From an uncultured Candidatus Entotheonella sp. (lineage in GTDB: Bacteria > Tectomicrobia > Entotheonellia > Entotheonellales > Entotheonellaceae): a DNA stretch of 64,000 nt. The stretch spans positions 3,581,489 through 3,645,488 of the forward strand of contig OY282375.1 of assembly GCA_958295825.1 (NCBI GenBank), given 5' to 3'. A model generated the notes under the pieces. It did no database searches. It had not been told where the DNA came from and saw nothing but the letters and a program-made list of their open reading frames with translations. Shown piece after piece: positions 20,598-24,801 of the stretch (the first letter of the stretch is position 1; each line of letters starts with the position of its first letter). The position numbers were made by a program, and so were the translations under genes.

Positions 20598-21227
20598 CTA
20601 CGTGAAGAGATCTTGTAGCCATGCGAGGAATGCGTGACAAAGGACACCGTCAACCTCCAAGTCGCGGGCGCCAATGGCGGAGCCCATGCGCCTGGGATCT
20701 TCTCTGGCTGCCAGCCAAGCGTGGAGCTTGGCCCGCTGAGTTTTCTGCTTGGAAAACTTTCTGTCCTGCTCGGGAATGGCGTCAATATAGCGCTGAGACA
20801 TGGGCCATACCGTATCCCCGGCGGGCACCATTTGAACTACGAAATCTTCGAGCTCACCGCCGGACGTGTTGTCTGGCATTAACCACACACCAACACGGGG
20901 CTTACTCGCGGCAGTGACGATCGTCCCTTCAGCAGCAGGGTGTCTGGGTAACCGGATGCCTTCGGTTGACAATCGAGTCTTTACGGCGTCCCAGCGCGAC
21001 GACAGGTCCGTATTAGCGTCGACCAAGATGCCGAGAGCTTGTCGTCCCGGTGCTCTCAATTCGGCGCCAATGGAATCGAGCAGTGGTTCGACGCCCTCAC
21101 GATTTTCAATGACAAAATCAAGGATGGATTTGTGTCGCCTCAATAGGTGTCGCACGACGTGCTCATCGTCCTGTCCTTCAACGAGGAGAACGCAGGGCTT
21201 TGGCAGAGAGGAATTGGGGCGGGCCAT
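20598..21227 (-). CDS. DUF3226 Toprim-like protein, partner of the adjacent ATPase
   Basis: A 209-residue DUF3226 protein. A Toprim-like fold is indicated by LLVEGQDDEHVVRHLL near 14-29 (catalytic Glu), LGILVDANTDL near 68-78 (Asp pair) and the family hallmark VWLMPDNTSGGELEDFV near 113-129. Toprim domains cut or join nucleic acids with metal help, or serve as inactive sensors. The gene starts three bases after the stop of the ATPase, so they are translationally coupled. With that ATPase it makes the second ATPase-effector pair in the window, here without any frameshift. Its biochemical function has to be tested. Confidence 0.8.
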   Translation of the reverse strand: MARPNSSLPKPCVLLVEGQDDEHVVRHLLRRHKSILDFVIENREGVEPLLDSIGAELRAPGRQALGILVDANTDLSSRWDAVKTRLSTEGIRLPRHPAAEGTIVTAASKPRVGVWLMPDNTSGGELEDFVVQMVPAGDTVWPMSQRYIDAIPEQDRKFSKQKTQRAKLHAWLAAREDPRRMGSAIGARDLEVDGVLCHAFLAWLQDLFT

Positions 21228-21230
21228 CGG

Positions 21231-22334
21231 TTACCTGACTTCAATTCCGTATTTGGCCGCGGCGTTGAGGTTATCCTCCGAGTACTCTACAGCGCGAATT
21301 TCGTTCCCATGCCTCTCGAGACGTACCAAGACCCCGTGTACATCTTCCAGATCCGCTGCTGCTTGCGCGAAGCCGACTACACAGTCCCAGCCGTGGGTTG
21401 TGGCCAGAACCTGCACGTCGTTTTCACGAGCAGTTTTCATGACCATTTTCCAGAAGTCACGCTGTATGGAATGGTGGACACCGTTCTCCGCTTCGTCGAT
21501 CAACAGAAAACCACCTTGACCGTTGGCGAGCGCTAAGGCGACGCCAAGCAATCGAACCGCCCCGTCGCCAAGACTTTTCAAGGGAACTGGATTATCCTGA
21601 CCTTTGAGCTTCACAATCGCACGACGAAACGGCCCTCTTCTGTCATCTCCCACAAAAGCGATGCGCTCTACGGGTTCCCCACCAATAATTTGTAAAGACT
21701 GTACAGCCCGCCCGTCATCATCGGTCAGGGCCACGCTGTCCCAAAATCCTGCCAATTGATAGTTGTTGGGTAAACCCGGACCCAGAGACACACACCGAAT
21801 TTCAGAGGTGGATTCAGAACTGTCCGGACGCAATCCACTCCGTAACGAACGGGGCAAACGATAGGGAGCCCAAAAGGCGCGCAAGGGAATTGCATGGTTT
21901 GCGTTTTTGAACTCGATACGCAGTGATTCGTCGGCCTCAGCCTCTGAAAAAAGCTGGCCTTGTTGCACCGCAGGGCCGATATTGATGCTTAATCGAGACT
22001 TTTCAACAGGTCCGATTGATATGCCGCAGTCTGAGGAGTGACTCCGGCCGAAGAAAAGGGCTTCTGGGTCCGGTCTGTATATTTTGTCGCCATCCTCGTC
22101 CACACCTACAACCAACTCTTCTCTTCTTTCCAGTACTTCCAATAGCACAGGGTAACTGCCACGCGCTGCATATACGCGTACGGCGTCTAACAGTGTCGTC
22201 TTGCCTACGCCGTTCTGCCCTGCAATCAACGTAATGCGGCCTAGGCGAGGGATCGAGAGCTCGTCTATGCCACGAAAACCCTTGATCGAAAGACTGGGCA
22301 GATGGAGGCTTTCGTCGAGTGGCGGGGTTTCCAT
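21231..22334 (-). CDS. AAA family ATPase (AAA_21/AAA_15 type) of an ATPase-Toprim module
   Basis: A 367-residue ATPase: Walker A GQNGVGKT at 39-46, a signature-like KSLGDGAVRLLGV near 255, Walker B FLLIDEAENG at 276-285 and ATTHGWD after it. The organisation is the same as SbcC/OLD-type ATPases, without long coiled-coil arms. I start at ATG 22334 because AGGGAG lies seven bases upstream; an in-frame ATG at 22388 lacks such a site. The partner gene (DUF3226) is three bases away. Similar ATPase plus Toprim/nuclease pairs act in abortive defence against phage or mobile DNA. Confidence 0.85.
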   Translation of the reverse strand: METPPLDESLHLPSLSIKGFRGIDELSIPRLGRITLIAGQNGVGKTTLLDAVRVYAARGSYPVLLEVLERREELVVGVDEDGDKIYRPDPEALFFGRSHSSDCGISIGPVEKSRLSINIGPAVQQGQLFSEAEADESLRIEFKNANHAIPLRAFWAPYRLPRSLRSGLRPDSSESTSEIRCVSLGPGLPNNYQLAGFWDSVALTDDDGRAVQSLQIIGGEPVERIAFVGDDRRGPFRRAIVKLKGQDNPVPLKSLGDGAVRLLGVALALANGQGGFLLIDEAENGVHHSIQRDFWKMVMKTARENDVQVLATTHGWDCVVGFAQAAADLEDVHGVLVRLERHGNEIRAVEYSEDNLNAAAKYGIEVR

Positions 22335-22449
22335 TTCGCACTCCCTTGCTTCCGTACGTGAGCCATACCGCTCTGCAACGAACGGCATGTGTCAATAGGG
22401 CACAATGTAGCAGATGCCCCATTTGCGGGCAATGAAAGGTGGTGCATGG

Positions 22450-22977
22450 TTAACGGTAAATCCCGTGTGCCGCGATGTAGTCGGCGACTGCTTCGGGAAG
22501 CATGCCGCCGAGCGAAGCGGGCGAGGCACCCTGCCGGAGTCGTTGGCGGATGTCACTGCTGCGGACCGCGTGGGTGGCGGGCAGGCTGAGGCGGCCAAAC
22601 TCCCGGTCGATGTCAGCGTGGCGCTGCCAGCGCTGCCATTCGGCGGCGATGTCGGGGCCGACGAGAAGGGAGAGCGGCTGCTGCAGGTGGTCCCGGAGAT
22701 GGCGGAGCACGTCGTAGGTGTATACGGGGTTGCCGTCGTCGGTGGCCAGGTGGCGTTCGACGACGCACACGCCGGCGCGGGCTTGCAGCGGCGCGTCGAG
22801 AGCCAGGCGGCACATGCGAAGCCGGTGCTCGAAGGGGGCGGACTGTTTGCCGAAGGCGTGGCGGAAGGCCGGCACGATGAGAACGTGGTAGCCGAGCTCG
22901 ACGGCCCGCCGGATCATGGAGACGTGCCCCGCGTGGACCGGATCGAAGCTGCCTCCATAGACGGTGTAACGGCGCAT
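22450..22977 (-). CDS. nadD: Nicotinate-nucleotide adenylyltransferase
   Basis: NadD joins nicotinate mononucleotide and ATP in NAD synthesis. Seen: GGSFDPVHAGH at 8-18 (HxGH-type nucleotidyltransferase motif), KQSAPFEHRLRMC, and the C-terminal RSSDIRQRLRQG equivalent to the (S/T)-x-x-I-R motif. At 175 residues it is shorter than the usual 200-215, mainly between the two motifs, and might be a relative with another nucleotide specificity. The gene is divergent from the prephenate fusion gene. Confidence 0.8.
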   Translation of the reverse strand: MRRYTVYGGSFDPVHAGHVSMIRRAVELGYHVLIVPAFRHAFGKQSAPFEHRLRMCRLALDAPLQARAGVCVVERHLATDDGNPVYTYDVLRHLRDHLQQPLSLLVGPDIAAEWQRWQRHADIDREFGRLSLPATHAVRSSDIRQRLRQGASPASLGGMLPEAVADYIAAHGIYR

Positions 22978-23118
22978 GCACCTACCCTTCCTGCAATGTT
23001 TGTCCGCCCCCTTATGGCGTGCTATAACGGGCGCCTCCAGTATTCCTCAGACACTGTAGGACACCCTGACCTCGGCTCAAGCCGGGAGAATGAACATTAT
23101 CACGGCAAGGGGCAACTT

Positions 23119-24801
23119 GTGAAAATCGGCTTTTTGGGACCGCAGGGAACGTACACGGAGGAAGCAGCGAAGGCGGCTATGGCGGACGCCGTTTACGTGC
23201 CCTACGCCGCTATCGAATCGGTGTTCGACGCCGTGGCCCGGCAGGAAGTGGACCGTGGGCTGGCGCCGATCGAGAACGTCATCCAGGGCCCGGTGACGGA
23301 GACCCTGGACAACCTGTTCCACTGCGCCGACCGCGTCAAGATCGTCGACATGCTCGTGCTGCCCATCCAGCACGCCATCGGGGCTCTCAGCCCGCAGTCC
23401 CAGGTCAGCCGCATCCTTTCCAAAGACCAGGCGCTGAAGCAGTGTTCGGCCTACTTGCAGGACCACTACCCGCAGGCGCAATGCCTCGATGTGGACAGCA
23501 CCAGCGCGGCTATGGAGACCATCGCCACAGAGCGCCTGACGGACGCGGCGGCCATCGGTAGCGAGACGGCTCTGAAACAGTACGGCCTGCACGTCCTCGG
23601 CCGCGACATCGGCAACGTCAAGCACAACAAGACCCGTTTTGCCGTCCTCGGTCCCGTCTCGGAGCCCCATCACCGCCGTACCGGGCGCGACGCCACCGCC
23701 TTCGCCCTGTATCCGCACCGCGACCGCCTCGGCATGCTGAACGACATTCTCTCTGCGATCAGCCTCGACTATAAGCTCAACCTGTCTTCCATTCACTCGC
23801 GCCCCGACACCCGCGGTACCTTCTTGTTCCACATGGAGGTCGAGGGGCACCTGGAGGATGAGCCGGTGGCGGCGTGCATGGCGCATCTGGCGCGGCAGTT
23901 CAGCGATCAGGAAGTCGAGGTCAAGGTGTTCGGCACCTACCCGCGCTGTGCCTTCAACGAGCCGGCGATCAAGACCATCGGCATTCTCGGCGGCACGGGC
24001 CAGATGGGGCAGTGGTTTCGGAAATTCCTCGGCGAGGCGCGCTACAACGTGCTCATCAGCGGACGCCGCACGCCGCTGACCTACCAGCAGTGCATCGAGC
24101 AGGCGGACGTGGTCATCATCAACGTGCCCATCCGCAACACGGTGGACGTGATCCGTGACGTGGGCCGCTATTTCCGCCCCGGCCAGCTCATCGCCGACAA
24201 CACCTCGATCAAGACGCAGCCCGTCGCAGCGATGCTGGCGGCGGTGCCGGAGGGGGTCGAGGTGCTCGGTATGCACACCATTTTCGGCCCGCGCGTGGAG
24301 AGCCTGCGCCACCAGAACATCGTGTTCACCCGCACCCCCGCGTCGGGCCCGCGTGCCAAGGAGTTCGAGGACATTTTCTACAAGCACGGCGCCACCATCA
24401 CCTATACGACGCCGCAGTACCACGACAAACAGATGGCCTTTCATCAAAATCTCGAACACTTCACCAAGGTCGCACTGGCGCAGGTGCTGCATACACACTT
24501 CAGCGACCCAACCGAGATGGACCGCTACAGTTCGCCCAACTCCCGCACGTCGCTGGCCATCATGGGCCGCATCCTGCGCGCCGATCCGGACCTCTATAGC
24601 GAAATCCAGTCTTACAACCTGCAGGGCCCAGCGATGCTGAAAGCCTACCTCGACGTGGTGCAAACCCTGGCGCAGGCGATGATCGATGGCAACGTCGGCG
24701 CCTTCACCCGCAGCATGACGGCGAGCGCCGACGCCCTGGGTGAGGACTATCTGGCGGACATGCTGCGGAGGTCGCAGATCATTCAGCGTAGCTTGGTGTG
24801 A
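23119..24801 (+). CDS. Prephenate dehydratase-ACT-prephenate dehydrogenase fusion
   Basis: A single 560-residue chain with three parts. Residues 1-180 are prephenate dehydratase (KIGFLGPQGTYTEEAA; catalytic KTRF at 171-174). About 193-272 is an ACT domain (GMLNDILSAI; NLSSIHSRPD with the Phe-binding ESRP-like site). About 285-560 is prephenate dehydrogenase (ILGGTGQMGQWF, NAD motif at 291-297; MHTIFGPRV in place of HPMFGP). So one protein can make both phenylpyruvate and 4-hydroxyphenylpyruvate; no chorismate mutase domain is present. Start is GTG 23119 with AAGGGG six bases before it; the longer frame upstream is antisense to nadD. The order pheA-tyrA in one chain is uncommon. Confidence 0.85.
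   Translation: MKIGFLGPQGTYTEEAAKAAMADAVYVPYAAIESVFDAVARQEVDRGLAPIENVIQGPVTETLDNLFHCADRVKIVDMLVLPIQHAIGALSPQSQVSRILSKDQALKQCSAYLQDHYPQAQCLDVDSTSAAMETIATERLTDAAAIGSETALKQYGLHVLGRDIGNVKHNKTRFAVLGPVSEPHHRRTGRDATAFALYPHRDRLGMLNDILSAISLDYKLNLSSIHSRPDTRGTFLFHMEVEGHLEDEPVAACMAHLARQFSDQEVEVKVFGTYPRCAFNEPAIKTIGILGGTGQMGQWFRKFLGEARYNVLISGRRTPLTYQQCIEQADVVIINVPIRNTVDVIRDVGRYFRPGQLIADNTSIKTQPVAAMLAAVPEGVEVLGMHTIFGPRVESLRHQNIVFTRTPASGPRAKEFEDIFYKHGATITYTTPQYHDKQMAFHQNLEHFTKVALAQVLHTHFSDPTEMDRYSSPNSRTSLAIMGRILRADPDLYSEIQSYNLQGPAMLKAYLDVVQTLAQAMIDGNVGAFTRSMTASADALGEDYLADMLRRSQIIQRSLV

Follow-up and report, generated by a model that had tools for sequence, protein, structure and literature searches.

A predicted PDT-ACT-PDH fusion without chorismate mutase at the prephenate branch point in a Candidatus Entotheonella genome

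Prephenate dehydrogenase (PDH, TyrA) is known from several kinds of fusion protein. The accessible part of Song et al. (2005, PMC1173090) describes fusions of TyrA with AroQ, AroF, HisHb, ACT and REG, as well as the Archaeoglobus TyrA-AroQ-PheA-ACT protein, which agrees with the Archaeoglobus TyrA-CM-PheA fusion to which an earlier, sequence-only reading of the present DNA had compared this gene. A chain made up of mutase, prephenate dehydratase (PDT) and PDH was found in Archaeoglobus and Ca. Huberarchaea and is apparently unique to them, according to the available text of a survey of archaeal fusions (PMC11237513). The common fusions of the pathway join consecutive steps, an arrangement that is explained by channelling or by cooperation. 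The gene described here lies in the window, the stretch of 64,000 nucleotides of Candidatus Entotheonella DNA that was analysed, and links in one chain two enzymes that draw on prephenate in competition with each other.

The gene and its domains

Translation of 23119-24801 on the plus strand of the window gave a protein of 560 residues with a single terminal stop.

23119..24801, + strand: complete PDT-ACT-PDH fusion gene for 560 aa, from the GTG start through the stop codon; uninterrupted frame in 4 of 5 genomes of the phylum
23107..23112, + strand: likely ribosome-binding site AAGGGG, 6 bases 5' of the GTG, as judged from the sequence
23125..23652, + strand: PDT domain, residues 3-178 (Pfam PF00800, 175.7 bits against a cut-off of 25.2)
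23695..23955, + strand: ACT region, residues 193-279, with the boundary set in this analysis (Pfam ACT match at 201-251, below cut-off)
23968..24399, + strand: PDH nucleotide-binding domain, residues 284-427 (Pfam PDH_N match at 323-427)
24409..24717, + strand: PDH dimerization domain, residues 431-533 (Pfam PF20463, PDH_C, 38.8 bits, above cut-off)

The open frame extends 5' of the GTG, reaching 795 aa when counted from an ATG at 22414, and this extension overlaps an opposite-strand cytidylyltransferase-like gene at 22450-22977. The latter, 141 bases away, is the upstream neighbor of the fusion gene, and a TENA family gene lies 42 bases downstream; both neighbors are on the minus strand, so the fusion gene stands alone. 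Elsewhere in the window (20598-22388, minus strand), a DUF3226 gene adjoins an AAA (AAA_21/AAA_15) ATPase gene.

The PDH_N match (PF02153, residues 323-427) scored 44.4 bits, above its cut-off. The Pfam ACT match at residues 201-251 scored 18.7 bits, under the cut-off of 27, and the assignment of this region was backed by its position and by the alignment of residues 2-276 to the NCBIfam PDT model PRK11898. This was the nearest NCBIfam model to the first half of the protein (209.7 bits against a cut-off of 219), while PRK08655 was the nearest to the second (180 bits against 310). Both halves belong to known kinds, yet they score under the cut-offs that NCBI uses for naming. Pfam found no CM_2 (chorismate mutase) domain in the 560-aa protein, and the domain order bore out the earlier claim that a single chain carries both prephenate branches, with ACT between them and no mutase. 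An AlphaFold2 model of the protein, built from two sequences, had a pLDDT of 35.3.

Spread and origin of the fusion

The window genome consists of one contig of 4.29 Mb and is 93.76% complete. A search of this genome returned the fusion gene as the sole match to the whole protein and also as the sole PDT match and the sole PDH_C match. All five genomes examined from the window's phylum carry the fusion, four of them in one open frame, namely the window and relatives at 91, 68 and 67% identity, the closest being L008 (OX639990.1). The fifth copy, in G001 (77% complete), is split, residues 2-94 being encoded in one frame and residues 86-558 in another. The shift of frame lies within the PDT part (L105, near 1110-1177) and reflects either error or decay. 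The dN/dS ratio relative to L008 was 0.127 for the whole gene, 0.130 for the PDT part, 0.138 for ACT and 0.118 for PDH. The single-frame copies and the low dN/dS make it very unlikely that the assembly is wrong or that one half has decayed, and a sequencing error that joined two genes, the first refutation foreseen by the sequence-only reading, was ruled out by the one open frame in four of the five genomes.

The survey covered 386 bacterial genomes, five of the window's phylum and 381 others, and some match to the window protein at E <= 0.001 was obtained in 264 of the 386. Among the matches listed, only those in G000, G002, G003, G004 and G160 spanned both halves in a single frame, which outside the window's phylum corresponds to at least 1 of 381 genomes (G160), again among the matches listed. 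The G160 match shows two TAG, yet its 574-aa open frame contains both halves. In the phylum of G160, referred to here as the second phylum, 10 of 45 genomes from several families have a single-frame fusion, a count that leaves out G399, where the PDT part is close to a contig end. When 381 genomes around G398 were sampled, 11 had a match at E <= 1e-42, and every one of these belongs to the two phyla; this sample overlaps the first survey, so the counts are not additive.

Two narrower views of the distribution were rejected. The fusion is not unique to the window genome, since it occurs in the 10 of 45 second-phylum genomes, and G160 is not the sole example outside the window's phylum, as a 649-aa protein of G033 is PDT-ACT-PDH by Pfam; the window query missed it because its PDH is too distant. 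The architecture had been called unusual, and it is indeed rare among the 381 genomes outside the phylum, among the matches listed, but these same examples show that it is not unique.

A tree was built from 52 PDT halves, excluding the partial rows L068 and L095, which have no ACT letters. Its 15 fused members, five from the window's phylum and ten from the second, formed one clade with support of 100/100. The fused members among 52 PDH halves also formed one group, at 92/84, a support that is not firm and falls short of the standard used for monophyly. In the 386 genomes, and among the matches listed, the nearest PDH half outside the window's phylum was that of G160 (E 1.9e-50), followed by one at 1.9e-34. 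Moreover, two residues distinguish the fused PDHs: Thr in place of Pro after the catalytic His386, and Asn361, each present in all 15 fused proteins and in none of the 37 others. Both residues were chosen with the alignment in view, and the sequences, being related, are not independent. Most likely, to judge from these sequences, the two phyla share one fusion, acquired through descent or transfer.

The G033 fusion (L042:1160-3106, minus strand, 649 aa) has PDT at 25-204, ACT at 227-284, PDH_N at 336-483 and PDH_C at 487-586 by Pfam. It keeps the ordinary ESRP motif and its PDT half (N_L042) lies outside the fused clade in the PDT tree; therefore, the PDT-ACT-PDH order arose at least twice. 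When the whole G033 protein was used as the query against the 386 genomes, only G033 gave a full-length single-frame match of the ordinary-PDH type, among the matches listed, and G003 of the window's phylum was matched over both halves. G315, a member of G033's family, has one half on each of two contigs.

Several other candidates proved not to have this architecture. G312, G296, G067 and G126 (L037-L040) each carry a PDT gene and a PDH gene side by side in one frame, separated by a stop codon. In these loci barely more than that one codon parts the two genes, a possible path to a fusion. G348 (L041:2183-3871, plus strand) is PDT-ACT-DAHP synthase by Pfam, and G408 and G401 were read as PDT-ACT followed by a DAHP-synthase-like part. 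The second-phylum sequences L101:971-3052 and L102:968-3052 (both minus strand) read as PDT-ACT with a DAHP-synthase-like C-terminal part and a longer N-terminal part, which from its sequence is probably a mutase.

Active sites, substrate and cofactor

The following features of the two active sites were located by alignment and from the sequence.

23632..23640, + strand: PDT motif TRF at residues 172-174, shared by all 15 fused rows
23989..24009, + strand: dinucleotide-binding loop GGTGQMG, residues 291-297 (sequence, alignment)
24061..24069, + strand: residues 315-317 (GRR) at the end of beta-2, NADP predicted, in 5 of 5 rows of the window's phylum
24205..24207, + strand: Ser363, equivalent of Haemophilus Ser179 by alignment; role from the accessible part of PMC2954222
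24274..24279, + strand: catalytic His386, then Thr387; Pro instead of Thr in 37 of 37 other PDHs
24568..24570, + strand: Arg484, equivalent of the substrate-binding Arg297 by alignment
24580..24582, + strand: Ala488, aligned with the residue that sets the choice of prephenate or arogenate (position 222 of the plant enzymes, Gln301 of Haemophilus)

The alignment showed that the PDT residues E52, N53, S101 and Q108 and the TRF motif are present in the window protein; we take these to correspond to residues of E. coli PDT studied by mutation. Glu159 and Glu232 are also named for the E. coli enzyme in the available text of PMC8192741. In the PDH half, S363, H386, H435, D436, H447 and R484 aligned with Ser179, His200, His248, Asp249, His260 and Arg297 of the Haemophilus structure 2pv7, and the roles of these Haemophilus TyrA residues are described in the accessible part of PMC2954222. 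As had been noticed from the sequence alone, both active-site motifs are present (TRF at 172-174 and GGTGQMG at 291-297), and the catalytic residues are intact. Four of the ten fused rows of the second phylum (L056, L057, L058 and L059) deviate at one or more of the named PDH positions, so the members need not all be equally active.

Residue 222 of the plant enzymes decides between prephenate and arogenate, with Gln or Asn as the non-acidic residues for prephenate, as stated in the accessible part of PMC5681985. The column of Ala488 is that of Haemophilus Gln301 and also that of the residue, Asn or Asp, in which plant chains 5t9e and 5t9f differ. Because Ala488 is non-acidic, the window PDH is predicted to use prephenate rather than arogenate. 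No precedent for Ala at this position was found in the literature covered.

At the end of beta-2, all five rows of the window's phylum read SGRRT, without Asp, while the same column is acidic in all ten rows of the second phylum (Asp in seven, Glu in three). An Asp at this point is taken as a mark of NAD in the part of PMC1173090 that was available. From this column, NADP is the predicted cofactor of the window PDH, and NAD that of the second-phylum enzymes. A lack of NAD-dependent activity, which the sequence-only reading would have counted as evidence of an inactive half, is consequently a poor refutation.

Proposed role, the ACT region and known systems

Taken together, these features make it highly probable that the fusion acts as a bifunctional enzyme at the branch point between Phe and Tyr synthesis. 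We infer both activities from them, along with the cofactor, the preference for prephenate and any control by ACT. A free-standing chorismate mutase of the AroQ type would make prephenate; the N-terminal PDT would convert part of it to phenylpyruvate and the C-terminal PDH the rest to 4-hydroxyphenylpyruvate, probably with NADP, and aminotransferases would complete both branches. Provided that the protein is uncut, the fusion would fix the ratio of the halves at 1:1, and ACT would be placed where either half could be acted on, common regulation being the hypothesis that this suggests. The two halves compete for the same substrate, so the fusion could not channel. The points against a bifunctional role are the Ala488 without precedent, the NCBI scores below cut-off, the deviations at PDH positions in four of the ten second-phylum rows, the exopolysaccharide setting of the gene in that phylum and the 92/84 support for PDH monophyly.

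The window genome has one CM_2 match, in a 103-aa open frame away from the fusion (G000:C1:821174-821410), and chorismate synthase is also encoded elsewhere (G000:C1:2454319-2455350). For 'Entotheonella', the accessible part of a paper from 2016 (PMC4996862) states that features of Phe or Tyr synthesis were not found, whereas the window genome has PDT/PDH, the mutase and chorismate synthase.

A ligand motif of the ACT region is altered.

23794..23805, + strand: HSRP replacing the ligand motif ESRP, residues 226-229, in all 15 fused rows and in none of the 37 others

GALV and ESRP are the key ligand-binding motifs of ACT, as given in the available part of PMC10845154. The first residue of ESRP is Glu in 28, Gln in six and another residue in three of the 37 other rows with letters at this position; HSRPD is invariant across all 15 fused rows, and the Ala of GAL has been replaced in the fused proteins by Leu, Ile or Met (GLL, GIL or GML). 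Of ten PDT-ACT positions that are near-fixed in the fused proteins and rare in the others, eight fall in residues 193-279. The p value of this enrichment was 0.0015 relative to all evaluated positions and 0.075 relative to conserved positions only, for residues chosen after the alignment was seen. Judged by its motifs, the ACT sensor has changed from the ordinary PDT form, and with the ligand motifs altered, control by phenylalanine cannot be assumed.

One reading, doubtful but a real possibility, is that ACT has lost ligand binding and is now a structural or dimerising linker, so that the enzymes are merely tethered. The region is under the Pfam cut-off in the window protein (18.7 bits) and in L051 (ACT_4, 22.9 bits) and gives no ACT row for L011, whereas six of six other PDTs compared exceed the cut-off, and ESRP is lost in all 15 fused proteins. 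However, the changes are identical in all 15 rows from two phyla, and an invariant HSRPD fits a new function better than decay.

The alternative is that ACT is a working common switch, where a single effector (Phe, Tyr or both) would bind at the altered site and control both halves, which we regard as a tentative and rather unlikely refinement of the best explanation. There is a parallel in aspartokinase-homoserine dehydrogenase, where ACT domains between two enzymes act as a branch-point valve. Three observations argue for a switch, 1) the ACT part is under selection like the enzymes (dN/dS 0.138), 2) the clade-specific residues cluster in ACT (eight of the ten PDT-ACT positions) and 3) the clade-specific T387 lies beside the catalytic His of PDH (15 of 15 against 0 of 37). 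Nevertheless, the ligand-binding motifs of ordinary PDTs have been changed (HSRP, GLL/GIL/GML), the enrichment at p 0.0015 for all positions is only 0.075 for conserved ones, with the residues picked post hoc, and the pLDDT of the structure model is only 35.

An error of sequencing or assembly is very improbable, and so is a loss of function in one half. The two frames of the G001 gene do show that error or decay occurs in the group, but single-frame copies exist in 4 of 5 genomes of one phylum and in 10 of 45 of the other, the catalytic residues are present and dN/dS is low in both halves.

In the second phylum (L011, L051, L053, L054, L056-L059, L128-L131 and L133), the fused gene comes directly after, or overlaps, a Poly_export gene in eight of ten loci and follows a HAD hydrolase gene in the remaining two, both of genus g335. 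In the wider stretches, the gene before Poly_export encodes a long TPR protein that matched the PrsT model TIGR02917 in all three cases tested, once above and twice below cut-off, while the divergent neighbor resembles the XrtA chain length determinant (TIGR03007) in four of four tested, all below cut-off. These matches suggest that the setting is like an XrtA exopolysaccharide locus. No neighbors of exopolysaccharide type were found among the genes adjoining the window copy, and a plain housekeeping role does not explain the exopolysaccharide setting in the second phylum. A still more speculative and, in our judgment, unlikely proposal is that the fusion is a prephenate valve of one origin in two phyla, with ACT rebuilt (ESRP to HSRP, along with the changes next to the catalytic His of PDH) so that a single amino acid signal would set Phe:Tyr, and placed in the second phylum in an exopolysaccharide locus.

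A literature search with few subscription journals within reach found no report of PDT-ACT-PDH without mutase, and the annotated protein databases probably hold such proteins already. Because the enzymes that were joined, on at least two independent occasions, compete for one substrate, channelling cannot explain the fusion, which therefore offers a clean test of ratio control against shared allostery at a metabolic fork.

The P- and T-proteins (chorismate mutase-PDT and chorismate mutase-PDH) join consecutive steps, whereas the window fusion joins competing steps and has no mutase. The TyrA-ACT and TyrA-REG proteins also have a regulatory domain in the TyrA chain but, as the accessible part of PMC1173090 describes them, the domain is C-terminal of TyrA and there is no PDT. 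The closest solved structure to the PDH half is the Haemophilus T-protein 2pv7, and in Pfam terms both are without most of the N-terminal part of PDH_N. The G033 protein shares the PDT-ACT-PDH order without mutase and, unlike the window protein, has an ordinary ESRP and a PDH whose match covers almost all of the PDH_N model. The Archaeoglobus TyrA-AroQ-PheA-ACT protein likewise combines both prephenate branches and ACT in one chain, but its available description sets it apart as an archaeal fusion with the opposite order, an internal chorismate mutase and a C-terminal ACT.
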